DNA from: Pseudomonas sp. TMP9
Lineage (GTDB): Bacteria > Pseudomonadota > Gammaproteobacteria > Pseudomonadales > Pseudomonadaceae
Direction of reading: 5' to 3'
Length of the DNA stretch: 64,000 nt
NCBI RefSeq assembly: GCF_037943105.1
Contig: NZ_CP149803.1
Location: 2,398,001-2,462,000 of the forward strand
The notes beneath the pieces were generated by a model. The model was not told where the DNA came from. It did not search any database and worked only from the letters and a program-made list of their open reading frames with translations. Each line of letters begins with the position of its first letter. Within the stretch, counting starts at the first letter, position 1. This document shows positions 23,789 through 43,641 of the stretch, one piece after another. The position numbers and the translations under genes are program-made.

Positions 23789-23888
23789 GGTGTTTGCCTC
23801 CAAAGGACCGTGATACTAAGTTTGTCTGAGCTTGCGAGCTTCGGGCCTGCTTTGCTCAGACGCCCCATAAAGTTCGCATTCGATCTTT

Positions 23889-24079: not shown

Positions 24080-27000
24080 TCAATCAGGCAACCATGAGAC
24101 GCGCCATGCTTCGAGATTTGCACCTTCAAGCATCCACCCCTCCTGTATTTGCCGGCGTAGCTCGTCACCCACCATGGCAGTCGCATCCAGATCGCTGATG
24201 TGCATACGGATTGCATCGACCCAGTCCTTAAACCTGTTCTTCACCCGGGTTACCGGCAGTGCGCCCTGATAACAGATGAGATCACTACACACGACCGGGA
24301 AGCCGCAGGCACCGTACTCAAGCAGGCGCAAATTACTTTTGCACTCATTGAATAAGTTTTGCTCAACTGGAGCCAACGCAAGATCAAGATCCAGGCTCGC
24401 CAATGCTGCCGGGTAAAGATCAATGCTGACCCCAGGATGCACCTCATGGACATAAGGGCGGATTTTATCCGGACACATGCCCATAAAAACCCATTCAACT
24501 TCGCCGGCCAATTCCTTCACCACATCAGCAATCAGTTCAAGATCGCCGGTATGGCTGACACCACCGGCCCAGCCTACGCGAGGCTTTCTCCCTCGCCGGC
24601 GCTTAGCCGACAAGTCGCTCCACCAATCCACTGGCAAGCGGTTCTCGATCACCCGAATGTCGCCATGCAAACCGGCAAAGGCCTCGGCCAACGGCGCCGT
24701 AGATACCGTGAACCGGTCAACAAAGCTCAGCCCCTTGCGCAAGGACTTGAGTATGTCCTTGGGCATTTGGGCACGATGCACACTCTTTAGGGGCAAGTTG
24801 GGCAGGTAATCATCTAATTCATAGATGGTGAAAGCGCGCGAAAATCTCTTGATCCGCCGCATGGCGTCCAAGCGCTCATCACCGATCTGACGCTGAAGCA
24901 CGATAATATCCGGATCAAGGCGCTCCAAATCTGGTACCTGCAACAGGCCGATGGACATCATGCCGTCAGCCATACCGGCATCCTTTAGCGCAGAAAACGG
25001 TTTAATCACACGATAGTTACCGCAGCCAAAGGGGTCAGCCGGATGAGCCAGCACTACTGGCAGCGGTCGCCAGCTCAGTGGTCGCCAGGTCAGGCCAGAA
25101 TCGTTCTCCAAATCAAAACCACGACCACTCAATGCCAGATTGCGGTTATAGGCAGGGTCACGCGCGATGTCTGGAAGGTGACGCTCGTAGAGTGCGTCTT
25201 GCTCGCCAACGTCAGGCTCTCGATATACATGTTCATGCATCAGCACCGCATGGGCAGCCCATACGGTCAGGTAGCCTGCAGCACGAACGCGCAGGCAGAA
25301 ATCGACATCGCGGTATGCGCTCAGCGTGACATCCAGGCCGCCAAGCTGACGAAAGATATCAGTGCGTACCATCAGGCAGGCATCACTTACGGCGCTGTAG
25401 TTCTGATCGACCTGCAGGCGTTGCAGATAGCCCGCGCTGTCCATTGCCTCACCGGCGAAAGCCCGGCCAGCAGGGCCACGCAGCCCAAGTAGCAAACCGG
25501 CTTGATCAATACGGCCATCACCGCTCAGCAGTTTGCCGCCAACAACACCGACTTCAGGGCGCTGCGCATGATTAAGCAACTCGTCCAGCCAGACCTCACT
25601 CACCGCCACCGACTCACCAGACAGTAGCAGCAGGTATTCACCTTTAGCGGCCATAGCCGCCTGATTCTGGGCCAACACGATATCGCCCGCAGAAACGACT
25701 TTGAGCCGAGCATCAGCCAGACTGGCAATCCCCTGCAACCACGCCTGAGTATCGGCATCCAATCCATCATGGGCACCGAGCAGTATCTCGTAATGTCCGT
25801 AACGAGTCTTCTCGAGCAAACTATCCAGACAGCGCTGCAGGCAGGCCAAAGGGGCATCAACCGCGATGATGATCGATACCAGCGGCGTACTCGAATGACC
25901 ATAATCGATGCGGTAACGGGCAGTTAGCCCTGGAATAACCCGCGCCTGATAACCGCGCTGGGCAAGATGGCGCTCAATTACTCGCCTCTCATCCGGGTTA
26001 TCCCGCAGTGCAGGCGCGTCAATGATTAGCAGTGGCTCATCAACATGACCCAACCCGAGCAAACCCTCTGCTTCAATTAAGCGGGTGAGAAGATCAAACT
26101 CCAGAGCATCGGCGAACTGCGCATCAAAGCCGCCAGCAGCCAGAAAGACATCACGGCGGAACAGCCAGTGGCGCGCCATAACCAGCGGGAAGCTGAGTAG
26201 CAAATCAAGATTGAAGCCAGGCAGAAAGGCACCACCAAGGCTGCCATCAGGTAAGCGCTGCAACTGATCGCCGTAAATCGCACGACACTTGGGGTTGGCC
26301 GTTAGCTCAAGCCCTGCGACCATCAGCCCACTCGGGGTGAACTCATCGCCAGCACGGACCAGCATGAACCAAGTAAAATCGCTGACACTGATAGCTTGGT
26401 TTAGTTGCTCGGCAATTGCCCCGCCCGCCAGCTGGATAAAGTGCAACTTATCAGAAGCTGATGTGGCCGGTACAGTGCTGCTGGTTAGAACCACAATCTT
26501 CAAAGTGGCATAGAGACAACGCTCACCACTCAGACTCTTCAGGGTTCGCATCAATAACGACGAATCCGTCTCGGTATCGAGCACAATAATGCCGATCAGC
26601 GGTCCGCCATCATGCTCTAGCAAGTAGTGGTTGATCAGTTTGTTTTCTGCTTCCGTTGGCAGGCGTTCGGCGAGCCACCGCTGCAGTGCCGGATCTTCCG
26701 GGCTCGCCTCAGCCAGGACACCCAAACTCTGCAGCATATCTTCACGACCCTGCTTCAGCGCCTCACTGGCCGACCCGAGATAACGCCTATACAAGGTTTG
26801 ATAGAGCTCCGGGAAGTTTTTCCGCTCCCGCCCCAGCATATGATCGCTGCCAGCCGCTTGGTCGCGGGTGTGTACCTCACTGGTAACTACTGGCACATGC
26901 ACAAACGGGTAACGTGTGGCCAGGCGCAGGAGCATGTCCCAGTCTTCGAATGCAGCCAGTCCCGTATCGAACTCTCCGACCTCATCCAGCATGTCACGAG

Positions 27001-29741: not shown

Positions 29742-30161
29742 TTAGCCGAGGGGTTTGCCAGAGGCAGCCTGACTGAACTGATCATAATCACGGTAATAGT
29801 CGTCTTCGCTGAAGTGTTCAGACGCCAGCACCATGCACACAGACCCGCTGGAGAAATTGTCGATTTCCCGCCAGATCATTGGCGGGATATAAAGACCGTA
29901 ATAGGAGCGATTGAGGTGGTACTTGAATTTGGTACGACCATCGTCGAGTAAAATATCGAAGCTACCTGACATGGCGATCAGCAACTGGTGCAAGCCCTTG
30001 TGCGCATGCCCACCTCGATGGGAGCCACCTGGCACATCGTAGAGGTAGTAAACACGCTTAATATCAAAGGGAATGTGGTTACCACCCTCGATAAACGTGA
30101 GGTTGCCGCGACGATCCTCAATGATCGGCAGGTCGATGATCTTGCAGTGCTGAAGAGACAT
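29742..30161 (-). CDS. dTDP-4-oxo-6-deoxyglucose 3,4-ketoisomerase (FdtA/QdtA family cupin)
   Basis: Small cupin that shifts the keto group of dTDP-4-oxo-6-deoxyglucose from C4 to C3, the first committed step to 3-amino-3,6-dideoxyhexoses. In 139 aa: DRRGNLTFIEGGNHIPFDIKRVYYLYDVP, then the histidine-rich catalytic stretch GGSHRGGHAHKGLHQLL and YGLYIPPMIWREIDNFS. The ATG at 30161 (MSLQHCK) has GGAG upstream; an earlier in-frame start is not supported. The product may be gluco (Qui3N) or galacto (Fuc3N); sequence alone does not decide. The next two genes upstream give the aminotransferase and acetyltransferase. Confidence 0.85.
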   Translation of the reverse strand: MSLQHCKIIDLPIIEDRRGNLTFIEGGNHIPFDIKRVYYLYDVPGGSHRGGHAHKGLHQLLIAMSGSFDILLDDGRTKFKYHLNRSYYGLYIPPMIWREIDNFSSGSVCMVLASEHFSEDDYYRDYDQFSQAASGKPLG

Positions 30162-30308
30162 ATAAGCGCTCCAAATACGCTGGTAGAACCCACTCCGCAT
30201 ACTCTCGACCATCTATAGAGCGGTAGGGATTGAGCAGCCGTAGTGTCAAAAAAACATGACCACCACGATTTTTATGTTCTATAGCAAAATTTGAACCACC
30301 CATCCATG

Positions 30309-31427
30309 TCACGCACGGAAAGCATTGCATGCGTCGATGGTTCGATCGATCCAAGTATCCGCAAGCCCTGGATAGAGAGGCAGACTGAGTACTTCGCCAG
30401 CCAGCTGGCTGGACAACGGCAAGTTCAGATTGGCGAAGCCTTGGTAAGCCTGCTGTTTATGAATTGGAATGGGATAGTGAATTAGGCTCGGCACACCGCT
30501 GCGCTCCAAATGAGCCTGGAGCGCTTCACGCTGTTCGCAGCGAAGCACAAACTGATGCCAGACATGACTGCTCGCAACTGCCGGCGCTTGCGGCAAACGC
30601 AGGTGTGGATTACAGATCTCGGCGATGTAGCGTGTGGCTATCCTTCGGCGAGCGCATGCATCACTTTCCATGCGCAGCAGTTTCACTCGTAGAAATGCAG
30701 CCTGAAGCTCATCCAACCGCGAGTTGACACCCTGAACCTCGTGCACGTACTTGCGGCTAGAGCCATAGCTGCGCAGCTTACGCACCTGCTCGGCAAGCGC
30801 ATCGTCGGGCGTGGTCAAAGCTCCGGCATCGCCGAGCGCCCCAATATTTTTTACCGGAAAAAAACTGAAACCCGCCGCGTCGCCAAGCGAGCCGGCTGAC
30901 CGACCCTGAGCGTCAAGAGCACCATGGGCTTGGGCCGCATCTTCGATAAGCAAAAGATCATAACGATCAGCGAGTGCCCGCAAACTCCCCATATCGGCGA
31001 GCTGACCATAGAGGTGCACGGCGATCACGGCTCTGGTTCGCGCACCGATAGCCGCTTCAACAGCGGCAGAATCTATGTTGAACGTTACGCTATCAGGTTC
31101 CACCAGCACTGGAGTCAACCCGGCCTCGCTTACAGCCAAGGCAGTGGCGATAAAGCTGTTGTCCGGCAGAATGACTTCGTCGCCCTCAACCAAACGCCCC
31201 AACTGGATATAACCGCGCAGGATCAGGGTTAACGCATCAAGGCCGTTACCGACGCCAATAGCGTGTTGTACGCCGCACGCCGCAGCGTACTCTGCCTCAA
31301 ACGCAGAAACCTCCGCCCCCAGAACATACCAACCAGATCGGAGTACGCGCTGGAAAGCTTCGGTCAATGCGGCTTCATCGCGCAGATTAAGAGCAGCAAG
31401 ATCAAGAAAAGGAAACATGTTACTCAT
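30309..31427 (-). CDS. DegT/DnrJ/EryC1-family sugar aminotransferase (FdtB/QdtB type)
   Basis: PLP enzyme expected to transaminate the 3-keto sugar nucleotide made by the neighbouring ketoisomerase. The 372 aa include the PLP lysine in [16 protein letters not shown] (about Lys192), the typical EDAAQAHGA segment and the substrate-loop histidine region. The ATG overlaps the stop of the acetyltransferase gene (ATGAGTAA), so the two are coupled. The 147 nt between it and the ketoisomerase gene holds no recognisable gene. Confidence 0.88.
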
Positions 31428-31884
31428 CCAGATAGCGCACGATACGTGCAGGATTACCTACAACAAGTGCGCGCGGTGGGACGTCACGAGTGACGACAGC
31501 GCCAGCACCGACCATCGCGCAGCTACCAATAGTAAGACCCGGCAAAATGACGGCAGCAGCGCCGATCGATACGCCTTGTTCAATCACGGTCTCGGCAAAG
31601 CTATCGGGGTAATGCTTGGAGCGCGGTAAGCGATCATTGGTAAATGTGGCATTAGGGCCGATAAACACATCGTCAGCAACACGCAAACCATCCCACAGAT
31701 AGACTCCACACTTCACCGTCACCCGATCACCCAGAACTACATCGTTCTCGATGAAGCAGTGCGCATTTATATTGCAGTCCCGCCCTATACGCGCCCGCTG
31801 CAAAATCACCACGTACTGCCAAACCGAAGTGCCTTCGCCGATCGACTGGCTTTGAACGTCCGCAGATGGATGAATGGATGCCAT
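31420..31884 (-). CDS. Left-handed beta-helix sugar N-acetyltransferase (FdtC/QdtC type)
   Basis: A 154-residue hexapeptide-repeat acetyltransferase with repeated I/V-G-X-X units ([32 protein letters not shown]) and the family mark [10 protein letters not shown]. Expected to N-acetylate the 3-amino group to give dTDP-Qui3NAc or Fuc3NAc. The ATG at 31884 has GAGG at good distance. First gene of the minus-strand set acetyltransferase-aminotransferase-ketoisomerase-glycosyltransferase, diverging from the TagB-like operon. rmlAB, needed for the precursor, is not in the window. Confidence 0.87.
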
Positions 31885-32009
31885 ATATCGCCTCACTTAC
31901 TGAATGGATGAGGGTAGCAAGCCTGATTTGCAGCGTCACGGAAGAACACCTTAACGGCCAGCGGATTTCCAGTAACATGAGCCAACAGTAATTGCCAGGA
32001 TTGGACGGC

Positions 32010-33074
32010 ATGGCGAGCGAACTCGATCGTATTGGTTTTTTGATTCATAATCCTGAGATGTTTAATCACTATCACGCTGTTTGGCAACACCTGCCAGCGG
32101 GCAGTGTGGAAATCGCGGTCACCGGCAAAACCCAGCAAGATATTGATACGGTCATAGCAGCCAGCGAACGGCGGAATTTACCTTGGCGTGATGCCCGTGA
32201 GCGGCTGGCACGCAAGGAACGCTACAACACACTGGTCTCCAGCTTTCCACAACACTATCTGCGCGGCGCCGACTCCCCTTACCTGCCCAAATCTATCGGC
32301 CGCTGCAACCTGAGGTTCATGTACGCCAATGGCAAGGCAGGCTGGAACTTTCAACCGTGGAATCAACAGTACGACAGCATCCTGTGTTTTGGCCCATACC
32401 AGGCTGAACATCTGGAGTTCTGCCGGAACACGCTAAAAGTCCAGATGGGTTACCCGCGCTTTGACCGCTTCTTCAACCAACCACTCGATCGCATTGCGAG
32501 CCTGACCGCACTCAAACTTGATCCGTCGCGCAAGACTGTAGTGTGGCTACCTACCTGGAGCACACTGAGCTCAATTGATCTGTTCGCAGTCGCTATCGCC
32601 CGGCTGCAAACGCACTACAACGTGATCGTCAAGCCACACCCCATCACCCTAACCGACGAGCCTGCACGCATGCGCGAGCTCGAGCGGTTCAACTGTGTGA
32701 TTCGTGAGCACATCGATAACGTCGAGTTGTTCCAGCTGGCCGACTTCCTGCTCTGTGACTACGGTGGCTCAGCTTTCGGCGGTATCTATACCGACCGTAA
32801 TGTACTGCTCCTAGACCTGCCTAACGCCGAGAGCGATCCGTTAATGGGTGAAGACTCCTCCGACATCTGGTTACGCAAGTACATGCCACACCTCACTGCT
32901 CAGCAGGCCGGAAGGCTAGAGGAGATGCTCGATGACGAAGCCTTATGGGCGGCCCAGCGCAGCGTGCGCGCCAGCCTCAGTCAGTACTACTTCGCCCCAT
33001 TTTATGGTTACGCCGGCCAGGTTGCTGCCCTGGCTATTGCCAACGCTGCACGCTCACTAGCAGGAAGAGCCTAA
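32010..33074 (+). CDS. CDP-glycerol glycerophosphotransferase-like (TagB/SpsB family) transferase
   Basis: A 354-residue GT-B protein. The C-terminal half has the family pattern KTVVWLPTWS, VIVKPHPITLTDEP and LFQLADFLLCDYGGSAFGGIYTDRNVLLLDLP. The conserved His in KPHP and the DYGGSAF motif (replacing the usual DYSS) are the catalytic region. Classical members move a phospho-polyol from a CDP donor to a sugar hydroxyl. Here the gene is coupled (TAATG) to the APS-kinase-like gene of the proposed phosphoramidate pathway, so transfer of phosphoramidate from a CDP-type donor is a tempting role. The ATG at 32010 has AGGA upstream; a TTG at 31992 is less likely. Confidence 0.8.
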   Translation: MASELDRIGFLIHNPEMFNHYHAVWQHLPAGSVEIAVTGKTQQDIDTVIAASERRNLPWRDARERLARKERYNTLVSSFPQHYLRGADSPYLPKSIGRCNLRFMYANGKAGWNFQPWNQQYDSILCFGPYQAEHLEFCRNTLKVQMGYPRFDRFFNQPLDRIASLTALKLDPSRKTVVWLPTWSTLSSIDLFAVAIARLQTHYNVIVKPHPITLTDEPARMRELERFNCVIREHIDNVELFQLADFLLCDYGGSAFGGIYTDRNVLLLDLPNAESDPLMGEDSSDIWLRKYMPHLTAQQAGRLEEMLDDEALWAAQRSVRASLSQYYFAPFYGYAGQVAALAIANAARSLAGRA

Positions 33075-33592
33075 TGGTCATCTGGCTGATCGGCCTATCG
33101 GGCTCCGGTAAAACCACCCTAGGCAAAGAAATAGTCAGTCAGTGGAAAACCAGCGCGCCCAACACTGTCTTGGTTGACGGTGACGAGGTGCGGCGAATAT
33201 TTCGCCAAGACACCCAAGCAGCCGATTACAGCATGGCCGGGCGGCGACTCAATGCCGAGCGTATTTTCGAGCTTTGCGCCTGGCTCGACGCCCAGAATAT
33301 CAATGTGGTGTGCAGCATATTGTCGATCTTCCCCGACCTGCGCGCACGCAACCGGGAACAGTTCCAACGTTATTTTGAGGTGTACCTTAACCCGCCGATG
33401 CAGACGCTATTGGAACGCGACACCAAAGGCCTTTATCGCAAGGCCCTGGCCGGCGAAATGAACGATATGGTGGGCGTGGATATTGCCTTTCCAGCGCCAA
33501 CGGCTGCTGACTTGGAAATTGACACCAGCCAGCCAGGCGATGTCAGCGCACTGGCACGTCATATTATTGAGCAGGCACAAGAATCGGCATGA
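33074..33592 (+). CDS. APS-kinase-like protein, predicted cytidine diphosphoramidate kinase (Cj1415-like)
   Basis: P-loop kinase, 172 aa. Walker A GLSGSGKT (7-14), DGDEVRRIF (35 on), RRLNAERI and the late RDTKGLYRKALAGE are APS-kinase features, but the usual SPF loop reads SIFPDLRARNR. No sulfurylase, PAPS reductase or sulfotransferase gene is near, so sulfate activation is unlikely. In C. jejuni the homologue Cj1415 phosphorylates the 3'-OH of cytidine diphosphoramidate; the other three enzymes of that route lie 3-6 kb away here. The ATG shares its A with the previous stop, and the end overlaps the next gene by 4 nt. Confidence 0.8.
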   Translation: MVIWLIGLSGSGKTTLGKEIVSQWKTSAPNTVLVDGDEVRRIFRQDTQAADYSMAGRRLNAERIFELCAWLDAQNINVVCSILSIFPDLRARNREQFQRYFEVYLNPPMQTLLERDTKGLYRKALAGEMNDMVGVDIAFPAPTAADLEIDTSQPGDVSALARHIIEQAQESA

Positions 33593-34164
33593 GCAGCGTC
33601 AGCTATCCCTACAGCCAAAGCAACCGCCTGGAAGAGCGCAACACCTATTTCTATAGCGAGTATCACGGCGCAGCATTCTTTCCTGCTTGGCGCGCCAGCC
33701 GGCAGGCAGCATTGGCCTGCCTCCCAGAGCCGCAACGCCTCGGTTTATCCCTCCCCTACCTTGCCATAACGAATGGCTTCAACACTGCAGCACTGCTCGC
33801 TGGTTTGCTTACGGACGCATCCGACAATCTGCAGAACAGACGCACTGCCGAGCGCCTGCTGCAACGTTTCGAAGTCAGCAAACGTCTCTATCGCAGCTAC
33901 AACAGCGACTTCAGAGCCGTGCTCGACAGTGGATATGAAGAGCTGGAGCTTTACCTGCAGTTCGCCTCGCTATGCCTGCACTACGCCGCACAGCCAAATT
34001 CGCTGCCCTTCCTCAATGGCATGCTGAAGAGCCTGGACAGCTTAATATCCATCAAGGAACGCCTGTGCCCGGAACAAGGCGCGCATTTGGCGTGGCTAAT
34101 CCACGCCGAACATAAGTGGGTGACAGACGTTGCTGCAGCCGTGGCGGTAGAAATAACTCAATGA
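33589..34164 (+). CDS. Conserved-context hypothetical protein, alpha-helical
   Basis: I do not recognise this 191-residue protein. It has no signal peptide or membrane helix and is predicted mainly helical (ASRQAALACLPEPQRL, DNLQNRRTAERLLQRFEVSKRLYRSY, ELYLQFASLCLHYA). It overlaps the kinase gene by 4 nt (ATGA) at one end and the formyltransferase-like gene by 4 nt at the other, so it is made in step with both and probably acts in the same decoration pathway. Confidence 0.75.
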   Translation: MSSVSYPYSQSNRLEERNTYFYSEYHGAAFFPAWRASRQAALACLPEPQRLGLSLPYLAITNGFNTAALLAGLLTDASDNLQNRRTAERLLQRFEVSKRLYRSYNSDFRAVLDSGYEELELYLQFASLCLHYAAQPNSLPFLNGMLKSLDSLISIKERLCPEQGAHLAWLIHAEHKWVTDVAAAVAVEITQ

Positions 34165-34880
34165 CATATCTAAACGATGTAGTGCTAATTGCGGCCCACA
34201 GCGCACGCAGCCAAGCCTATGTGCAAACGCTAGCCGCGCATGAGCTGATGCCGTCCCATGCCCTCGTGCTTGGCGAGGCACCGCCCAGTGAAGCCGGACC
34301 ACTCGCCCCGGCAAAGATCGTGTCGGGGGTTCTTCTCCCGGACCTGAGCATTCCCCTGAGCAAAACCCTGGCCGACGCCGGCGTGCCCAGCACTTACCTC
34401 GCGACCCGTGACATCAATGCAACAGAGGTTCTTAAGGCCGTACGTGACCTTGCCCCGCGCCTGGTGATTTTTTCCGGCTATGGTGGCCACATCGTAAAGG
34501 CCCCACTAATCGAACTGGGTATCCCACTGCTGCACATACACAGCGGCTGGCTTCCAGAGTATCGGGGCAGTACTACGGTCTACTACAGCCTGCTGGAGGA
34601 ACGCACCTGTGCCGCCAGCGCAATACTCCTCGACACCCACATTGATACGGGCCCAGTACTGGCGCGAAAACACTATCCGGCACCGCCCATGGGTACCGAC
34701 ATAGATCGACGTTATGACACGGCGATTCGCGCCGACCTGCTGCTGCAGGTACTACGTCGCTACCAGGCCAGCGGCAAACTGGACGCGCTCATGCACCAGC
34801 AGCGGGAGGACGGCAATACCTATTACGTCATCCATCCGTTACTCAAGCATTTGGCTTTGCTAAGCCTGCCCGAGAACTGA
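34161..34880 (+). CDS. Formyltransferase-fold protein, possible sugar or nucleotide-sugar formyltransferase
   Basis: A 239-residue protein with the 10-formyl-THF transferase fold: LHIHSGWLPEYRGSTTVYYSLLEE (about 124 on) followed by DTHIDTGPVL with the catalytic Asp162. The usual Asn of the Asn-His-Asp triad is His125 here, while His127 and Asp162 are kept. It lacks the C-terminal OB domain of methionyl-tRNA formyltransferase. Role is inferred from context: N-formylation of an amino sugar in the flagellar glycan, or a related transfer. Last gene of the coupled plus-strand operon. Confidence 0.7.
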   Translation: MTYLNDVVLIAAHSARSQAYVQTLAAHELMPSHALVLGEAPPSEAGPLAPAKIVSGVLLPDLSIPLSKTLADAGVPSTYLATRDINATEVLKAVRDLAPRLVIFSGYGGHIVKAPLIELGIPLLHIHSGWLPEYRGSTTVYYSLLEERTCAASAILLDTHIDTGPVLARKHYPAPPMGTDIDRRYDTAIRADLLLQVLRRYQASGKLDALMHQQREDGNTYYVIHPLLKHLALLSLPEN

Positions 34881-34913
34881 TGCAGCAACAAAGACGTCCA
34901 CGTCGATAGCGGC

Positions 34914-36116
34914 TCAGGTAAAGGGTTGGCCTTGATAGCTATAGTGCTTGCGAGCCTCATGGAGGTTCATCCGCCGCTGGGCAGCAGGCAACACCTGAGA
35001 GCGGCGACGCAACACGACAAACAATTTATCGACATCCTGACTAGGCACGAATGCCTTGGTCATCTTGCTGTCTACCAGCTCAAAGTAGCGCTCCATAATG
35101 TCGAACTTATGATCGAGATCGCCATCGTCCCCTGCCGTCCCAGCACCTGGACCGAACACATTGTGGCTTTCGAAAAACAACCAGCCATCTTCATTAGTAA
35201 GGTGCCAAAGCTTGGCCACAAAGCTTTCAAACTCGACAGACAGATTACCGTCGATCGTGCAGTGATTGGCGAAGGAAAGCACAACGTCATAGCGTTTGAG
35301 AGGCGCCCAACTGCTGAAGTCTGCAACCTCAAAGTGAACGTTGCGCTGATCAAGTGCCTCTGCGGTGATGCGACCAATCTCGACCAGAAAGGGGTTGTAC
35401 TCCACAGCATCAACTGAGCCCGCATGACGGGCCAGCTCGATAGCCATAAAGCCATTGTTACAACCGATTTCCAAGACACTCATGGCGGGTTTCAGCCACG
35501 AGGTGAAGCCATAGGCCTGCAAACGTACTTCAGTCGGTTTGACACCGGCCAGACCGATGCGGGCATAACCTTGATAGGCATAGCCCCCGCAGTAGGGTTT
35601 CCCCCAGTGCTTGTTCTGCATGTCCAATAAACTGAATACTCGATCGAGCAGTTCGGTGCGTTGCGGTGCCACCAGCTGCGTCACCACCAGATCACGCCAC
35701 GTGTAGTAACGCGCCAAGAACCCGAACGATGAATCACCGACAGGATTAGCACTACTCAGATAGCTCAGCAGCTGATGCATCAGAGTACCTGGCTGATCCG
35801 CATCCCCCTGCTCTAATACCCATTGCGCGCTGCTGATTTCTATCTGAGCCATAGTGGCGGGCACCCATAGCTGCTCACGCAGACCTTTGACAAGCTGCTG
35901 CATGTTTGGATGCTGGGCACAGACATCTGGCCAGAGCGCCTCCAAATAAACGGGACTCAGCAATACCCTCATGCATAACTGCTCCCATAAAGCGTCCACC
36001 TCTTGAGCACTTATCGCCTGTAAATACTCGCGGGCCTTTTGCTCCAGCGTGTCAGCGGGACGAGGAAAGCGGCTCAGAATCGTAAGAACTGTTTGCCGGG
36101 GGAAACACAAAGGCAT
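34914..36116 (-). CDS. Class I SAM-dependent methyltransferase
   Basis: In 400 aa the first 190 or so residues form an unrecognised helical domain. A Rossmann methyltransferase domain follows, with motif I VLEIGCNNGF (about 213), VDAVEYNPFL, FEVADFSS and VLSFANHCTI. It is the last gene of the minus-strand operon with the glutamine kinase, amidotransferase and cytidylyltransferase genes, the place where C. jejuni has its MeOPN methyltransferases Cj1419/Cj1420, so O-methylation of a phosphoramidate is a reasonable guess. It could instead methylate a sugar. GGAG precedes the ATG. Confidence 0.8.
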   Translation of the reverse strand: MPLCFPRQTVLTILSRFPRPADTLEQKAREYLQAISAQEVDALWEQLCMRVLLSPVYLEALWPDVCAQHPNMQQLVKGLREQLWVPATMAQIEISSAQWVLEQGDADQPGTLMHQLLSYLSSANPVGDSSFGFLARYYTWRDLVVTQLVAPQRTELLDRVFSLLDMQNKHWGKPYCGGYAYQGYARIGLAGVKPTEVRLQAYGFTSWLKPAMSVLEIGCNNGFMAIELARHAGSVDAVEYNPFLVEIGRITAEALDQRNVHFEVADFSSWAPLKRYDVVLSFANHCTIDGNLSVEFESFVAKLWHLTNEDGWLFFESHNVFGPGAGTAGDDGDLDHKFDIMERYFELVDSKMTKAFVPSQDVDKLFVVLRRRSQVLPAAQRRMNLHEARKHYSYQGQPFT

Positions 36117-36133
36117 GGTGAGCGCTCCAAAGC

Positions 36134-36874
36134 TTAATGAGTCAGGTCAGCCACAGAAAATAGCCGGTGATAGAGCGCCAAATCATCTGCCGCATCCACT
36201 TCGCCCCATACTCCTTGAACGGGCGACACCGCAATTTGCCAATCGGCCTGCAAGCCAAGACGTAACAGCGTGGTCATATCCAACCGATCCACCTCTGCTT
36301 CACTGTAACCGGCCAACAGCTCGCGCACTTGCGCCCAGCCCGTTGGGGTGAACTTCAGCAGGCCCATATACTGCCCTTCGATCTCGGCTACATTGCTGCA
36401 GCGCTCACCGATGGTAGCCAAATAGCCGGCGCTATCCAGACGAAAGCTTTCGGCGTCAGCAAGAGGATCGTCAAAGCGTTGAGACCACAGCGCGTGCCAG
36501 TGTGGGTCGTAAGCTATCGCCAGATCTTGCTTAGCAGCCGCTAACCCAGAAACGGTTGCCGCACTGTAAAAAATGTCGCTGTAACTGACGATGCAATCTT
36601 CCGCAGCCAGCCAGCTATCGGCGGCCAATAATGTGCGCACCATATTGCTCTGCTGCCAGCGCGGGTTTTCAAAATAAGTTAACGGCTCAGCGAAGCATTC
36701 AGCGCGGTAACCACGCACCACAGCCAGTTGCTCGATACCTGCCCCGTGCAACGCCGTTAGCTGCCAATCCAGCAAGCGTCGACCATGCAGACGAGCAAAG
36801 CACTTGGGTTCGAGGGTAGTCAATTCGCCCATACGGCTGCCGCGGCCTGCCGCGAGAATGATGGCATGTGTCAT
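36134..36874 (-). CDS. Nucleotidyltransferase, predicted CTP:phosphoglutamine cytidylyltransferase (Cj1416-like)
   Basis: GT-A-fold nucleotidyltransferase, 246 aa, of the phosphocholine cytidylyltransferase-like family. The nucleotide loop is AIILAAGRGSRMGELT (4-19), the conserved Lys follows in LEPKCFARL, and SNMVRTLLAADSWL and VSYSDIFY are the substrate-pocket signatures. In C. jejuni Cj1416 joins CTP to L-glutamine phosphate. The ATG at 36874 lies 7 nt after the amidotransferase stop with GGAATGA as ribosome binding site. A choline-phosphate role is the main alternative, but no LicA/LicD-type genes are near. Confidence 0.82.
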   Translation of the reverse strand: MTHAIILAAGRGSRMGELTTLEPKCFARLHGRRLLDWQLTALHGAGIEQLAVVRGYRAECFAEPLTYFENPRWQQSNMVRTLLAADSWLAAEDCIVSYSDIFYSAATVSGLAAAKQDLAIAYDPHWHALWSQRFDDPLADAESFRLDSAGYLATIGERCSNVAEIEGQYMGLLKFTPTGWAQVRELLAGYSEAEVDRLDMTTLLRLGLQADWQIAVSPVQGVWGEVDAADDLALYHRLFSVADLTH

Positions 36875-36881
36875 TAACAAC

Positions 36882-37484
36882 TCATTCCTTATTCAGACAT
36901 TGCGCAAGAAGTATTTTGTCCAGTTCGGCAAAAGGCATCTCTCGCTCCGGGTGCCACATTATCCCCATGACTGGCAGATGTTCGTGGGTGAAAGCCTCGA
37001 CAACACCGTCATCACTCCGCGCCAGCACCTGCAGGGGTGCGCGGAGCTCTCGGCACGCCCACTGGTGATAGCTATTGACCGAAAAAGTACGGCCATTAAT
37101 CGACACCTGATGACGGTTACCTACATGTCCTGTCACGCGCTCTAGGGGAATGCCGAACGCATCCAGCACCAGTTGCGCGCCACGGCATAGTGCGAAAAGC
37201 GGAATCTGCTCAGCCAGCGCACGGGCCAATAAAGCACGCTCCACGGCATCACGTTCGGGGGCATCTCCGCCGTAGCTAGCCAAATCATTCCCACCAGAAA
37301 GAATCACAGCACAGGGACGCAGATGCTCCCATAGCGCCGCTAATCTCTCGAGGTTATTAGGTACAGGCACAGGCAGCAGGTCACTCGCTGCCAGCCAATC
37401 CAACAGGCGCTGATCGAGCGTATCGCGGCGCTCACCTCGATCAGGCAAAACGTCGACCCGCTGACTGACCAGCACCGTCTTCAC
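36882..37484 (-). CDS. Class I glutamine amidotransferase, predicted gamma-glutamyl-CDP-amidate hydrolase (Cj1417-like)
   Basis: A 200-residue free-standing amidotransferase domain with the full Cys-His-Glu triad: Cys100 in FALCRGAQ, His178 and Glu180 in MWHPERE; GGNDLASYGG gives the oxyanion region. It resembles gamma-glutamyl-GABA hydrolases (PuuD) but is shorter and sits between the glutamine kinase and cytidylyltransferase genes, matching Cj1417, which frees cytidine diphosphoramidate from CDP-glutamine. Start is GTG at 37484 overlapping the kinase TGA (GTGA) with GAGG at good spacing. Confidence 0.83.
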   Translation of the reverse strand: MKTVLVSQRVDVLPDRGERRDTLDQRLLDWLAASDLLPVPVPNNLERLAALWEHLRPCAVILSGGNDLASYGGDAPERDAVERALLARALAEQIPLFALCRGAQLVLDAFGIPLERVTGHVGNRHQVSINGRTFSVNSYHQWACRELRAPLQVLARSDDGVVEAFTHEHLPVMGIMWHPEREMPFAELDKILLAQCLNKE

Positions 37485-39808
37485 CGCAACACCTCAACTC
37501 GACGATTCGCACAATCGATGCTGAGCACCTGCGCTGCCGCCCATTTACGATAAAGCACCTCACCGGCGCCGATCACCGCCGGCAAACCCAGTTCGTTGGC
37601 GCGAATCGCCATATGTGAATTGGCTCCACCGTACGCCGTGATGAAGCCCGCTATACGGTGAGAAAAAATCCAATCGAAACCGGGGTCGGCACTGGGAATA
37701 ACCACAATGGCCCCTTGCAACCGATCACGCTGCAGGTAGTCCACTACGGCAGCCGTAACCTGACGCTGAGTAATAAAATTTGGCTCGGTCTGGGGCATGT
37801 GGAAACAGAGTGCATCCTCTGCCCGAGTAATCAGCGGCGGTAGAACAATCTGGCAAGTCTCGGCATAGCGCCGGCGCCCTTCCTCGATACTGGCCGCAAT
37901 TAACTCCTTAGGGTCGGCGCTGGCGGCATGCAGCTCTTTGATAACCTGGATATTGGCGTAAGACATGTCATCAGCACTAAAGCCCAGGTCTTGGCCCAAT
38001 TCACGAAATAGCGTGAGCGCATCCGACAGGTTGCGTGTGAAGACGAACTTGGCGTACTCACGCAACTCGATGCCTGCTTGAAGAAAATCGAACAATCCCA
38101 CCACATCGTGAGACAACCCATGCTCGCTTAGCAGCCGGCTGATCTCACGCATCTGCGCCAATGACAGGGCAAAACGCGCCTCATCGGGGCGAGGTTCAAC
38201 AGCCATGCGCTGCCAGTCGAAATACAAGTCAGGGGCTTCGTCATAGCGCGGCGATAGGATGTCGTAGGTTCCGGGACGCAAATGCCCGTAACGAGCGAGA
38301 AAGGTCGTGCGATTGAGCTGCTCAAAATCCTGTGTCATCTGCCCGCTGACAGTGGACAAACCACTGAGAAAAGCATCGTATTCGACTTGATTGAGCACAC
38401 CGACAGTGACCAGCGAGCGCAGCAATTGCACCGCAATGAATCCGGCGCGTGCCAAGCCTGCAAACGGCAGAGTGCCGTAGCGGCGACAATCTTCCAGCAA
38501 CCAATAGATGCGGGTGACCGGGTCGGTGTCCGCACCAAGTATTTCATCACGACGCGCCAATAGAACATCGAGCTTTTGCCGATCCGTACGCCACAACCCC
38601 GTTTCATTGTGCACGATACGATTGGTCAGATTACGCAGACTGTCTGCCAACCGCTCGCATTCGGCCTCAGTAAATCCTTCGTTCTGCAAGGCTTGCAAAC
38701 GTTGTGGCAAGTCCAATGTGTAGCAGGAGAAAACGATTTCAAACTCGATCTTGTCATGCAGGTTCGGCGCAGCCAGCAAGCGCTCAATGTAATAATTGAC
38801 CAGCTTGTCAGCTAGCGCCCCTTCTATATCACGGGGGATGAACGAGTTGAAGCTGACGCGCACATCGATATACGGCAAGCCATGGAAGTGCAGCATTAAC
38901 GGGAAACTGCGAAGGTTGCGATAACCGTAATTATTGCGCTGGTAGGCCCAAATCATATCGGTGACCAGCTCGCGATACAGCGACAATGCCAATGGCCGAG
39001 GGCGCACACCAATAATCTCTGCCGGGTTCCAATCCGGCATCACGCCGAACACCGTTCGCTCGCCATGCAAAAAAGGTTGCGGCCGAATTCCCTGGGCGAT
39101 GCGCTCATGAATCAAACGAACCAGCTTGGCGTGGCTTTGCGTATCTGTCGGCTCGCCAGTCAGCACCAAGGGGCGAACCTGGAGCAGGAACAACCGCCCC
39201 TGCTTATCCATGGCAAATTCGATGTCGATGGCCTGTCGACCAAACAGGTTCTGCAACTCTCGCAACACGTCCACCACCGGTGCCAGATCCAACGGAACCT
39301 GGGTCGCGGAGTGGTGGGCGTAAAAGGTTTTGAGCTCGTTGGAGCGCCCCGACGTTACGCTGTCTGTTAGGCCGCTACTTTCATCATAATTAATCACGAA
39401 ATAAGGGGCCAAGGTGGCTGGGTCAAGCCCAAAGCCAACGCCCGCAAGGCTCACATCCGTGACCATCGGCTGCACGAAAAACTGATCATCCGGCCATGCG
39501 GCCTGACCGCCCATGGAGTCAAGCACGCGTTCGACGGCGGCCTCGACCTCATCGTGGGTGACATTCAGATAGGACTCGTACTCACCCGCTGCCGAGGCCT
39601 GCTCACCGTCCTCACGAGCGCTGCTACTGCGCACGGCCATGTAGGGCCAATCCGCCTCATGTAAACGCGTCAAGCAAGCTCCGGCATTCAGTCGCCAGTC
39701 AGCTACAGTAAACAACACTTGGGGCAATACAATAGCGCCCTGCAAACGGCCAGCCAGCAGTGCGAGCGTTCCCGCTTTGGTGGAAAAAGCCAGTGCCTGA
39801 TCGGTCAT
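37481..39808 (-). CDS. PEP-synthase-like phosphotransfer enzyme, predicted L-glutamine kinase (Cj1418-like)
   Basis: A 775-residue protein of the PEP-utilising enzyme superfamily: N-terminal ATP-grasp domain (about 30-230; MAVRSSSAREDGEQASAAGEYESY, IDIEFAMDKQGRLFLLQVRPL), a large central domain without similarity to the PEP synthase barrel, and a C-terminal swivelling domain with the phospho-His in GGANSHMAIRANELG (about His732). A true PEP synthase would need the C-terminal PEP/pyruvate-binding TIM barrel, which is missing. This build and length match Cj1418, which phosphorylates the amide of glutamine. ATG at 39808 is preferred; an in-frame TTG at 39829 is possible. Confidence 0.82.
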   Translation of the reverse strand: MTDQALAFSTKAGTLALLAGRLQGAIVLPQVLFTVADWRLNAGACLTRLHEADWPYMAVRSSSAREDGEQASAAGEYESYLNVTHDEVEAAVERVLDSMGGQAAWPDDQFFVQPMVTDVSLAGVGFGLDPATLAPYFVINYDESSGLTDSVTSGRSNELKTFYAHHSATQVPLDLAPVVDVLRELQNLFGRQAIDIEFAMDKQGRLFLLQVRPLVLTGEPTDTQSHAKLVRLIHERIAQGIRPQPFLHGERTVFGVMPDWNPAEIIGVRPRPLALSLYRELVTDMIWAYQRNNYGYRNLRSFPLMLHFHGLPYIDVRVSFNSFIPRDIEGALADKLVNYYIERLLAAPNLHDKIEFEIVFSCYTLDLPQRLQALQNEGFTEAECERLADSLRNLTNRIVHNETGLWRTDRQKLDVLLARRDEILGADTDPVTRIYWLLEDCRRYGTLPFAGLARAGFIAVQLLRSLVTVGVLNQVEYDAFLSGLSTVSGQMTQDFEQLNRTTFLARYGHLRPGTYDILSPRYDEAPDLYFDWQRMAVEPRPDEARFALSLAQMREISRLLSEHGLSHDVVGLFDFLQAGIELREYAKFVFTRNLSDALTLFRELGQDLGFSADDMSYANIQVIKELHAASADPKELIAASIEEGRRRYAETCQIVLPPLITRAEDALCFHMPQTEPNFITQRQVTAAVVDYLQRDRLQGAIVVIPSADPGFDWIFSHRIAGFITAYGGANSHMAIRANELGLPAVIGAGEVLYRKWAAAQVLSIDCANRRVEVLR

Positions 39809-39877
39809 GTTTTTCGTCGATTCCTTCAAAATTGAACATGCCGCACTGCCCCACTGCTAGAGCAATAAAACTACCTA

Positions 39878-41557
39878 TTAACGCAACTGATTAAACAAAT
39901 TCAGCCCAGCAATCTTCACATAGCTCTGCTGCGCTGCCTCAAGGACGATAGTTTGAAATGACAGGCGCGAGAGTGCTTCTGCGTAGTCTAATTCGCGCAG
40001 GTCAGCTTGGACGGCTTTGTTGATCAGGGTGACATCTTCGTTATCGATTTCAGTCGTCTCGATCAAGTTGAGCCGTGCGCCGATCTCCGTTTGCACTTCA
40101 AGCACCTTGCCCAACCCGTTGTCTAGGTTGGTCAGCGCAATCGCGACCTCATTACGAACCCCCAGGTTGCCCGCAGGTGAGGTCGGGGAAGACTCCAGCG
40201 CCTGACGTAGACGGCTGATGGTGTTTAGGATGCTGATCTGCTCTTTGAATTGCGGCTGCACGCCGAATTCATCGCCACCGGCGGCAGCGGCAGGCGCAGA
40301 CAAAGTGAAGTTGGCGCCATACACGCTAAAGGTTGCGGGATATGGACCACCAACAGAACCCGTGCTAAGAACTGGGCTACCCGGCCCTACCGGCTGGGAA
40401 TAGACCTCGTAATTGCTGGCATCAGTGAACCGCAGCACCACGCCGGAGGTCGGGAATTGCCTATCGAAGGTCGCTTGGTTGCTGATACCCGCAGGCGCAA
40501 TGATCGCAGTGGAATTATTGGTCGATGAGCGATTCACCGCAAAATCCGTTGGCGCCGACTGCAACGTAAAAGTGTGGGTATTGATACCAGGCGCACCGGC
40601 AGTGGCGGTATCTGCCAGAAGGTTATTCAGGTCAAGTTCGTTATCCCCGGGCTTCAGCACGACATCTAGCTGGAAACGCATCCCTCGAAAGGTAATGGCG
40701 GTACCGTTGTTAGTCAGTGGGTCAATCAATCCAGCACCCGGCACCTCCGACGTTACGTCCGCGCCAGCGCTGTCATAAATACGGAACTCTTTACCGCTGA
40801 CGAATGCCAGCGAATAAGGCTCACCGGAGCGAAAATTGCTGTTAAACGCTTGGTTGTCCTGCACCAGCCCTGGCGACATAAAGATCCGCTGATCCGCTGC
40901 AGGTAATGCCGGAACGGTAGTGGCTGGCAAAGGCGGTGTCGGTAATGCCGGATTGTTGACACCGAGCGTATTCACAACCCGGTTGGCATTAGTCACCTCT
41001 TCGAAAAGGCGCTTGCCGTTGTCATTGATCGCTACATTGCTGGAGCCTGCAACCTGAAGGGTGCGCTGCCCTTCATCACCTTGGTAGGAATAGGTGCCGT
41101 CGGGGTTGCGCTGGAAGGGTTCAGTTTTCCCGAGAAAACCGCTGAACAGGTATTCACCGCGAGCATTGCGACTGTTCATTAAGTTCAGCAGCTCGCCCTC
41201 ACGCTCACTTAGCTCTTTGGCAAGTGATTTGCGGTCTTCAGCCGATAACGCACCGCCGCCAGCTTGCACCGCCAATTCGCGAACACGCTGCAGTACATTG
41301 ACTACCGAAGTGATGGTGGTTTCTTCTTGGGCCAGACTGTTCTTTGCAGCGGTGAGGTTTTCCTTGTACTGACCAAGCACTGCCTGTTGTTGTTCGAGTT
41401 GCAGCAGGCGCACCGAGGCTACCGGGTCATCAGCCGGAGTAAGAATACGATTGCCGCTGCTAATCTGCTCCTGAGTGCGAATCAGATTTGCATAGTTACG
41501 CCCCAGGCCGCTAACACCGTTATTGAACGCTTGGATTGAAGAGATGCGCATAACCAT
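39878..41557 (-). CDS. flgL: Flagellar hook-filament junction protein FlgL
   Basis: Second junction protein between hook and filament. Conserved ends: MRISSIQAFNNGVSGLGRNYANLIRTQEQISSG at the start and a flagellin-like helical C-terminus (ALTNLDNGLGKVLEVQTEIGARL, DLDYAEALSRLSFQTIVLEAAQQSY-like). At 559 aa it is clearly longer than P. aeruginosa FlgL (about 440), with the extra in the exposed beta-rich middle. GAGG is best spaced for the ATG at 41557, but the family usually begins at the second ATG (41551). Last gene of the flgF-flgL run. Confidence 0.93.
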   Translation of the reverse strand: MVMRISSIQAFNNGVSGLGRNYANLIRTQEQISSGNRILTPADDPVASVRLLQLEQQQAVLGQYKENLTAAKNSLAQEETTITSVVNVLQRVRELAVQAGGGALSAEDRKSLAKELSEREGELLNLMNSRNARGEYLFSGFLGKTEPFQRNPDGTYSYQGDEGQRTLQVAGSSNVAINDNGKRLFEEVTNANRVVNTLGVNNPALPTPPLPATTVPALPAADQRIFMSPGLVQDNQAFNSNFRSGEPYSLAFVSGKEFRIYDSAGADVTSEVPGAGLIDPLTNNGTAITFRGMRFQLDVVLKPGDNELDLNNLLADTATAGAPGINTHTFTLQSAPTDFAVNRSSTNNSTAIIAPAGISNQATFDRQFPTSGVVLRFTDASNYEVYSQPVGPGSPVLSTGSVGGPYPATFSVYGANFTLSAPAAAAGGDEFGVQPQFKEQISILNTISRLRQALESSPTSPAGNLGVRNEVAIALTNLDNGLGKVLEVQTEIGARLNLIETTEIDNEDVTLINKAVQADLRELDYAEALSRLSFQTIVLEAAQQSYVKIAGLNLFNQLR

Positions 41558-41598: not shown

Positions 41599-43641
41599 TC
41601 AGAACGTGTTAATCAGTGTATCGAACAGGCTGCGGGCAACTTGAATAATCTGTGCTGAGGCTTGGTAATACTGCTCGAATTGGATCAGCTTAGCGGCTTC
41701 TTCATCAAGGTTGACCGCCGAAATCGAATCGCGATTATCAGTAGCCTGTTTGAGGATAGCCCCAGTGGCCTCACCATCAACCCGCGCCTGACTGGTCAGT
41801 GTGCCCACCCGCTCCACTAAATCTCCGTAAGCGTCAGTAAAGCTTGAACCTGTGGTTGCAGGCGCTAGGGGATTGATACCAATGACCGCTCGATTCTGCA
41901 GGTCGATTAGCTTCAAAGCGTTACGGTTATCGGATACACCATTGGTGTTAAACGATACAGAGAAATTATCGCCGCTCTGAGGCCGACCACTGACACTCAC
42001 TTCGTAATCAAAAGGCACCGGTACAGGAGGCGGCCCGGCTGAGGCGGGCACAGTAATGGTCAACTTATTATTCTGCCCCGGCACGATGACACCGGTATCA
42101 ATAGCAGGACCGCCACTAAGGTTAAACACCTCATAACTCTGTACACCTGCTGTAACTGCCCCCATCACGATGCGCAGTGGCGGTGCGTTGCGTAGGCTGG
42201 TTTCCAGATTAGTTTGAGCCACCGGGTCGTAGATATCGATTTCAGTTTTCAGTGTCGGCTGGCTGATCACGCCAGTGCCAATATTCGCTGGGCTGGTTTG
42301 CGATTTCAGCGGAGCAGCAAAGGCTAGCTCCTCTGGCCGCTTCATGTCGGCACGCATAGACTCGCCGGCATTACGCGCCGGCATAACCCGAAAGCGATCA
42401 CCCGCAGCAAACGTACCGCTGGCCACGTTCAGTGAGATGCCTTCGAACTGCGCAGCCGGAACCGCCGTGATATCAAAAGGACCAAAACTGGTACCGTCGC
42501 TGATGCGTCGCGCGGTGAAATCTGTAGCAGTGGTGAACTCAATCTCATAGTCGCTTGTGCTGAGCTGGGTGGTGTCTTCGATCAACACGTTGAGGTTGGC
42601 TGTGGTGTCACTGTTACCCACACGCGCCAAACTGCGTTGACCAATTAGCAACGGATCATTCAGCTCACGAAATAAACCATTACCGAACTGACCATTGAGA
42701 TCCAAGCCCTGCCCAAGCTGACGATTGACTTGATCGGTGACCGACAGCGCCAGTCGCCCGACTGAGTTAAGCGTGGTATCCAGCACGTCTTCGCGGTAGC
42801 GGATCAGCCCGCCCATCTCGCCGCCAGTGATTAACGAGGTAATACCTTGGCGCGAATTGCCGCTGACAAACTGCACTTCACTGCGCAGCGGATCGGACAA
42901 GCCGGGGACCACTTCAAGTCGTGACGCGGTACTGCCTACTACCAAGGGCTGGCCCGAACCGACAAAAAGGTTGTAGCTGTTGTCGTCTTGGGAAACCACG
43001 GTTACACCAATAAAAGTCGACAACTTGCGCACAGCCTCTTCACGCGCATCAAGCAGATCATTAGGCTGCTTGCCGTTGGCTGCAGCCACTGCGATTGCAT
43101 CGTTGTAACCCGCTATTGATGTTGCCAGTTGATTGACTTGGTCACTTACTGCAGAAAGCTGTTTATTGATAAATGCGTTTTGTTCGGATAGACGGTCGTA
43201 GACAGTATTGAAACGCTTGGCCAAACCTTCAGCCTCAGACAACGCTAATTGCCGAGCTGGAATATTGGCAGGGTCTTCTGCAGCGGTTTGCAGCGCAGCA
43301 AATACTTTTTGCAACCCAGGATTGACCCCAGTGGTAGTACCTGCCAGCAAGGAATCCAGCTGATTGATCTGGCCCAGATAGCTCTGGGTATCACTATTAA
43401 GTGCTGTGCTGCTGCGCACCTGCGTATTGAGAAATTCGCTGTAGATACGTCTTACATCGACCAGCGTTGTACCTGAGCCGATGTAACCGACGCCGCTGAA
43501 CTGCGGAATACGCGTAGCCTGTATCGTCTCTTGGCGCGAGAAGCCGGGCGTATTGACGTTGGTGATGTTGTGGCCGGTGACCGCCAGCGAGGTTTTGTTC
43601 GCTGACAGCCCAGACAAGCCAATATTGAGGAGATCAGCCAT
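41599..43641 (-). CDS. flgK: Flagellar hook-associated protein FlgK
   Basis: First hook-filament junction protein, 680 aa. The N-terminus has the rod/hook signature (LLNIGLSGLSANKTSLAVTGHNITNVNTPGFSRQE) and the C-terminus the FlgK end (VNLDEEAAKLIQFEQYYQASAQIIQVARSLFDTLINTF). The middle is a long beta-rich surface region. It starts 6 nt from the flgJ stop and is read in the same operon. Confidence 0.95.
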   Translation of the reverse strand: MADLLNIGLSGLSANKTSLAVTGHNITNVNTPGFSRQETIQATRIPQFSGVGYIGSGTTLVDVRRIYSEFLNTQVRSSTALNSDTQSYLGQINQLDSLLAGTTTGVNPGLQKVFAALQTAAEDPANIPARQLALSEAEGLAKRFNTVYDRLSEQNAFINKQLSAVSDQVNQLATSIAGYNDAIAVAAANGKQPNDLLDAREEAVRKLSTFIGVTVVSQDDNSYNLFVGSGQPLVVGSTASRLEVVPGLSDPLRSEVQFVSGNSRQGITSLITGGEMGGLIRYREDVLDTTLNSVGRLALSVTDQVNRQLGQGLDLNGQFGNGLFRELNDPLLIGQRSLARVGNSDTTANLNVLIEDTTQLSTSDYEIEFTTATDFTARRISDGTSFGPFDITAVPAAQFEGISLNVASGTFAAGDRFRVMPARNAGESMRADMKRPEELAFAAPLKSQTSPANIGTGVISQPTLKTEIDIYDPVAQTNLETSLRNAPPLRIVMGAVTAGVQSYEVFNLSGGPAIDTGVIVPGQNNKLTITVPASAGPPPVPVPFDYEVSVSGRPQSGDNFSVSFNTNGVSDNRNALKLIDLQNRAVIGINPLAPATTGSSFTDAYGDLVERVGTLTSQARVDGEATGAILKQATDNRDSISAVNLDEEAAKLIQFEQYYQASAQIIQVARSLFDTLINTF

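Follow-up and report, generated by a model that had tools for sequence, protein, structure and literature searches.

What are genes for making a phosphoramidate donor doing among the flagellar genes of a pseudomonad? The question arises from a window of 64,000 nucleotides of Pseudomonas sp. TMP9 (contig NZ_CP149803.1, positions 2,398,001 to 2,462,000; coordinates below count from its first letter), in which the list of open reading frames and a Pfam scan place a block of glycan-type genes between flgL/flgK and fliC/fliD. Four genes of this island are, as judged by their sequences, intact counterparts of the phosphoramidate-donor enzymes of Campylobacter jejuni. Their presence, their position in the island and the linkage of the accessory genes can be read from the DNA. 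We consider it probable that the island's enzymes synthesise an activated phosphoramidate and attach it to the flagellin glycan, so that the locus is a known donor pathway in a new setting with new accessory genes.

Counterparts of the Campylobacter donor enzymes

In C. jejuni, Cj1415-Cj1418 convert glutamine, ATP and CTP into CDP-phosphoramidate 3'-phosphate, according to the accessible part of the source (PMC11800397). A sequence-only reading of the TMP9 window had proposed that all four of these enzyme types are encoded there, and the proposal was borne out. The open reading frames lie as it described, their start codons are right (ATG at 39808 for KIN, GTG at 37484 for AMT, ATG at 36874 for CYT and ATG at 33074 for APSK), and each predicted protein is like its C. 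jejuni counterpart over most of its length, with the catalytic residues kept. Identity is 42.5% (325/764) for KIN, of the glutamine-kinase type (Cj1418-like; 37481-39808, minus strand), 38.6% (73/189) for AMT, of the gamma-glutamyl-CDP-amidate hydrolase type (Cj1417-like; 36882-37484, minus strand), 32.5% (77/237) for CYT, of the CTP:phosphoglutamine cytidylyltransferase type (Cj1416-like; 36134-36874, minus strand), and 36.3% (61/168) for APSK, of the CDP-amidate kinase type (Cj1415-like; 33074-33592, plus strand). The gene order KIN-AMT-CYT is common to both organisms.

The C. jejuni reference is isolate S4 (locus L121; whole contig, 10 kb, L215), not strain NCTC 11168. It was found by searching named genomes for the kinase phospho-His motif with a pattern biased towards A+T; 95 stretches matched and 80 of them were analysed. 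That the S4 genes are the counterparts of Cj1415-Cj1418 rests on species, family matches and gene order. On the S4 contig APSK, a methyltransferase, KIN, AMT and CYT all run in the same direction, and no gene for a Cj1421/Cj1422-type transferase was identified on these 10 kb.

KIN scores 976 bits on family NF004508 (cut-off 501) against 65 bits on the phosphoenolpyruvate (PEP) synthase family; the C. jejuni kinase reaches 1126.9 bits on NF004508. As the earlier reading had it, the Pfam domains of KIN are PPDK_N (ATP-grasp) and the PEP-utiliser phospho-His domain only, with no PEP barrel, and the phospho-His is His739 (782-residue numbering, with the start at 39829). The key residues are kept: all 63 kinase positions conserved in at least 97% of the rows of a 112-row alignment, which includes the window and C. 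jejuni (the latter twice), are present in KIN, and AMT has the Cys-His-Glu set expected of such an amidotransferase (Cys100, His178 and Glu180, each conserved across 93% or more of 95 rows). APSK scores 155.7 bits on subfamily NF004041 (cut-off 127). When the TMP9 genome was searched with the C. jejuni proteins, the APSK query scored 104.8 bits with the window APSK as against 39.2 with the genome's own CysNC, and the CYT query returned the window CYT at 117.8 bits with the next-best protein at 32.2. The alignments, the kept residues, these own-genome searches and the kinase tree described below all support the pathway assignment.

The arrangement of the genes departs in part from what had been read. 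KIN and AMT do overlap, by 4 bases, but AMT and CYT are separated by 7 bases (CYT ATG start) or by 1 base (TTG start), and the overlapping operon holds for the first pair only. The steps of the Cj1415-Cj1418 pathway run from glutamine kinase to cytidylyltransferase, CDP-glutamine hydrolase and finally CDP-amidate kinase. Since the cytidylyltransferase acts before the hydrolase, KIN-AMT-CYT is, contrary to the earlier claim, not the reaction order. APSK lies outside this operon, in a plus-strand run of opposite orientation, GPT-APSK-ORF191-FORM, whose successive genes overlap by 1 to 4 bases.

Flagellar setting and spread of the pathway

One edge of the island is a presumed FlgL (39878-41557, minus strand; flagellin-like, Pfam Flagellin_N), followed by what we take to be FlgK (41599-43641); both names are given by position. 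At the other edge stand FliD (Pfam) and the flagellin FliC (22304-23803, minus strand; Flagellin_N and Flagellin_C), the presumed acceptor protein. Between them a multi-domain glycosyltransferase of 1863 residues (24080-29671, minus strand; GT61 and GT2 domains by Pfam) is likely to be the builder of the flagellin glycan. It is accompanied by an FdtA-type sugar ketoisomerase (29742-30212, minus strand; PF05523), a DegT-type sugar aminotransferase (30309-31427, minus strand; PF01041) and a hexapeptide acyltransferase (31420-31896, minus strand; PF00132). These glycan-type genes between flgL and fliC agree with the earlier description of a flagellin glycosylation island. GC content shows no clear jump across the island.

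The donor pathway is not rare. Of 398 genomes from the same genus, 35 have its kinase family, as do 15 of 398 drawn from the phylum, two of the latter belonging to the same genus. Stretches of at most 20 kb were taken around 34 other genus loci and 14 phylum loci with the kinase, plus one further locus (L100). AMT and CYT adjoin the kinase in 34/34 of the genus loci and 12/14 of the phylum loci, which counters a chance grouping of hydrolase and cytidylyltransferase with the kinase, and APSK lies inside the stretch in 25/34 and 7/14.

In five of the other genus loci (L080, L081, L083, L084 and L085) the kinase stands beside FlgL/FlgK, as in the window. The six kinases from flagellar loci form one clade with full support in the Shimodaira-Hasegawa-like approximate likelihood ratio test (SH-aLRT 100); the tree was a quick one, built from 56 of the 112 rows with no PEP synthases as outgroup. 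The five relatives are 73 to 98% identical to the window KIN, and the next-closest kinase is 60% identical. The FdtA-type, DegT-type and acyltransferase genes accompany the island in four of these five relatives, and L085 has the last two. Since only 5/34 other genus loci are flagellar and the pathway is widespread, its use in a flagellar setting is the less common one, and for some kinases no neighbours of this kind are seen.

The spread extends to ocean bacteria. Among the A+T-rich loci, cut to 8 kb, a kinase was recognised by profile in 79/80, and AMT and CYT were present too in 49 of these 79; the phospho-His search pattern favoured A+T-rich genomes. Pelagibacter-type (SAR11) ocean bacteria supply 38 of the 80 loci, with the kinase in 38/38 and the hydrolase and cytidylyltransferase in 28/38, and clusters from Prochlorococcus and SAR86 are also among them. 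Six Actinomarina/OCS155 loci have a distant kinase only, the hydrolase and cytidylyltransferase not being in view. No paper that joins phosphoramidate and Pelagibacter was found in the open-licence literature. Two kinase loci (L105 and L108) have no hydrolase or cytidylyltransferase within 20 kb, and the kinase may therefore serve other uses. Conversely, at L100 (genome G018) AMT and CYT directly follow a comM-like gene in a genome with no kinase match at E 1e-60; this is perhaps a shortened cluster.

A candidate transferase and its companions

Sequence and fold matches suggest that GPT (31992-33074, plus strand), a TagF-like protein encoded beside APSK, is likely the phosphoramidate transferase. 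It matches PF04464, the family of TagF and other CDP-glycerol glycerophosphotransferases, at 34.1 bits (cut-off 22.1), and H216, P217 and D256 are invariant over six rows in which the five other proteins are 15 to 21% identical to GPT. The first 12 PDB matches to the fold of its model (mean predicted local distance difference test, pLDDT, 61) are all TagF chains. GPT thus shares with TagF the domain match, the fold and the HP/D positions, but sequence identity to the fold matches is 13 to 15% and its proposed donor contains no glycerol. TagF transfers glycerol phosphate from CDP-glycerol; an attack of the same type on CDP-amidate in place of CDP-glycerol would move phosphoramidate.

Fifteen of the 34 other genus loci have a match to the TagF-like family close to the kinase. 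In 15 more a family that we call f7 is found there, which fits the TagF-like profile weakly (4/15 f7 rows at E < 1e-3), and four loci have neither. GPT-APSK-ORF191-FORM-KIN-AMT-CYT clusters stand off flagellar genes at L086, L087, L088, L089 and L092. Sugar genes lie beside two (L089 and L092) of these five non-flagellar genus clusters; an FdtA-like gene is found beside the GPT-type clusters of L089, L092 and L138 and a DegT-like gene beside those of L089 and L160, which fits an amino-deoxy sugar as acceptor. L085 is a flagellar island with a kinase of the window's clade, but its methyltransferase is of the Campylobacter type, its TagF-like protein is a different one, and its APSK is only 36.8% like that of the window. 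At L066 (7100-13380) the cluster reads f7-APSK-methyltransferase-KIN-AMT-CYT, again off flagellar genes; f7 recurs in 14 further genus loci, and a comM-like gene is near nine of the 15 f7 clusters. The window is 61.6% identical to L066 in KIN and 34.3% in APSK, and 40.4% identical to L086 in KIN and 49.4% in APSK. The KIN half and the APSK half of the island are thus closest to different loci, as would fit separate modules joined because they work together.

ORF191 (33589-34164, plus strand) is a pathway-linked family with no known domain. It has no Pfam match; its sequence finds nothing in the PDB better than E=1 and its predicted fold (pLDDT 70) nothing below E=0.54. It is present in 10 of the 398 genus genomes, all ten among the 35 kinase-positive ones and at most 3.4 kb from the kinase (hypergeometric P 7e-12, relatedness ignored). 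The next gene, FORM (34161-34880, plus strand), is formyltransferase-like (PF00551, 31.8 bits, cut-off 26.1). Among the 34 other genus loci, nine contain FORM or ORF191, and all nine contain the two together; both are also found in L138 (Roseivirga), L157 (KSB1), L160 (Campylobacterales) and L147 and L159 (Pelagibacteraceae), ORF191 scores being weak (19 to 23 bits) in L160, L147 and L159. FORM stands without ORF191 in 2/2 phylum loci and 4/9 A+T-rich loci having FORM.

FORM has an altered motif. The Asn of the formyltransferase NxH motif is catalytic, and it is present in two PDB formyltransferases aligned with FORM. Of the Asn-x-His and Asp set, FORM keeps the His and the Asp, while the Asn is replaced by His, as it is in 21/21 rows above 60 bits; H126, H128 and D163 are invariant in ten rows.

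The earlier reading had a methyltransferase following the operon, with possible O-methylation of the phosphoramidate. A methyltransferase does stand there, the 400-residue S-adenosylmethionine-dependent MT400 (34914-36116, minus strand; Pfam), but it differs in type from the one in the C. jejuni cluster, to which its best local match spans 37 residues (E=0.002). The Campylobacter-type methyltransferase, present in other clusters, was not found among 16 window proteins compared. The case for O-methylation is accordingly weaker than was thought. MT400 has relatives in seven of the 398 genus genomes at E 1e-30, all seven ORF191-positive; in three of the seven the match covers the C-terminal half only and lies at another place, with no other window protein among the 16 compared matched within 20 kb. 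In the genomes that contain L086, L089 and L092, an MT400 relative is encoded away from these clusters. Compared with C. jejuni, then, the TMP9 genes have a TagF-like transferase, ORF191, FORM and a different methyltransferase alongside. An anti-phage role was also considered: a PADLOC scan of six proteins returned one match, of APSK to VakA, and it was weak (E=0.0008).

Where the phosphoramidate may go

We propose a model in which KIN uses ATP to phosphorylate the amide nitrogen of L-glutamine through its phospho-His, CYT would combine the product with CTP to give CDP-glutamine, AMT would remove glutamate to leave CDP-amidate, and APSK would phosphorylate the 3'-hydroxyl of CDP-amidate, each step being modelled on the characterised C. 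jejuni counterpart. GPT would then pass the H2N-PO2 group from this donor to a sugar set on FliC by the 1863-residue glycosyltransferase. The acceptor is probably a 3-acylamino-3,6-dideoxyhexose made through the FdtA-type, DegT-type and acyltransferase genes, and MT400, ORF191 and FORM may tailor the phosphoramidate or its acceptor. Gene position (synteny) makes it plausible that flagellin carries the phosphoramidate.

Several observations weigh against this model. The best NCBIfam family for AMT is the gamma-glutamyl-CDP-amidate hydrolase family NF045546, which it matches at 121 bits against a cut-off of 250; the C. jejuni protein clears that cut-off at 324 bits, and the family by itself is unspecific, with matches in 14/14 control genomes, none above the cut-off. 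APSK was not found in 9/34 genus and 7/14 phylum stretches of at most 20 kb. The GPT fold search also returns other GT-B enzymes (WaaG, UDP-GlcNAc 2-epimerases) at somewhat weaker E-values, at a model confidence (pLDDT) of 61, and the sequence of GPT does not reveal which substrate it uses. Finally, a FlgK match is absent from 29 of the 34 other genus stretches, about 9 kb on each side of the kinase, which means that having the pathway need not entail a flagellar product.

This last point leads to the alternative that survives best, in which the donor is the same but its acceptor is something else (core lipopolysaccharide, capsule or a small molecule that diffuses away), the position among flagellar genes reflecting no more than an insertion hot spot. 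The C. jejuni donor serves the capsule, as far as the available text of the source goes (PMC11800397), and its genes lie in a capsule locus, unlike the flagellar island of TMP9. At L066 the four scanned flanking genes, of Mg-chelatase type (comM-like) and for a chemoreceptor, a LysR protein and a MatE protein, include no glycan gene, and an ammonium transporter is near L086. Yet all six kinases of the flagellar clade adjoin FlgL/FlgK, the sugar genes are retained in the relatives as described above, and no flippase, polymerase or ligase was found by Pfam among 12 island proteins scanned. We regard a non-flagellar acceptor as unlikely, though worth keeping in mind.

A second alternative borrows from other flagellins. 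For the b-type flagellin of P. aeruginosa PAO1 a CDP-amino-acid donor, CDP-dimethylthreonine, has been proposed, and the TMP9 flagellin might likewise carry a phospho-amino acid. In both systems a cytidylyltransferase goes together with a TagF-like domain and a methyltransferase for or beside flagellin, in the available portion of the PAO1 description (PMC11833859). PAO1 PA1088-PA1091 and C. difficile Type A cd0240-cd0244 share with the TMP9 system as modelled here a proposed CDP donor, a TagF-like transferase and a phospho group on a flagellin-linked sugar, and the TagF-like CD0244 has been put forward as the enzyme that transfers phosphothreonine from CDP-threonine onto the flagellin sugar (PMC10714395, in the text available). 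The proposed donor in both is, however, CDP-(methylated) threonine, and the accessible portions of the two accounts describe no glutamine kinase or CDP-amidate hydrolase (PMC11833859, PMC10714395). The PAO1 set comprises four genes, pa1088-pa1091, one of them phosphoserine-phosphatase-like (PMC11833859, same portion), whereas no phosphatase domain was found among the 12 TMP9 island proteins scanned with Pfam. Because KIN and AMT are present in TMP9, where, moreover, a genome search with the C. jejuni CYT ranks the window CYT first, a CDP-amino-acid route is very improbable. The idea that PA1088-PA1090 of PAO1, a strain whose flagellin bears a phospho group, are themselves these genes was set aside, a CDP-threonine route being described there instead. 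That the proteins are an ordinary PEP synthase, amidotransferase, adenosine 5'-phosphosulfate (APS) kinase and choline cytidylyltransferase (LicC-like) of another pathway, which Pfam names alone would permit, is in effect refuted by the KIN family scores and domains, the 63 conserved kinase positions and the own-genome searches with APSK and CYT.

Transfer of a phosphoramidate to the flagellin glycan remains our preferred reading. No report of phosphoramidate on a flagellum was found by title in the open-licence literature, which is weak evidence of absence. It is tempting to speculate further that GPT, ORF191, FORM and often MT400 mark a second kind of phosphoramidate system, with TagF-like transfer of the phosphoramidate and further capping by new chemistry, drawn from an HxH formyltransferase relative and the mostly helical ORF191 family, which here decorates flagellin; this is a tentative suggestion that we would sooner doubt than adopt.

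The best-known surface phosphoramidates are those of the Campylobacter capsule, which matter for recognition by phages and for resistance to serum. A phosphoramide group on a proteobacterial surface glycan is also described for Xanthomonas campestris, there on the core of the lipooligosaccharide (PMC8042644). The analysis names a candidate transferase family, that of GPT, and two uncharacterised proteins, each testable singly. Because the donor pathway occurs in many bacteria, ocean lineages included, phosphoramidate products may be widely overlooked. If our reading of the TMP9 island is true, a rare P-N group would sit on the main protein of the filament, which both phages and host immune sensing target.

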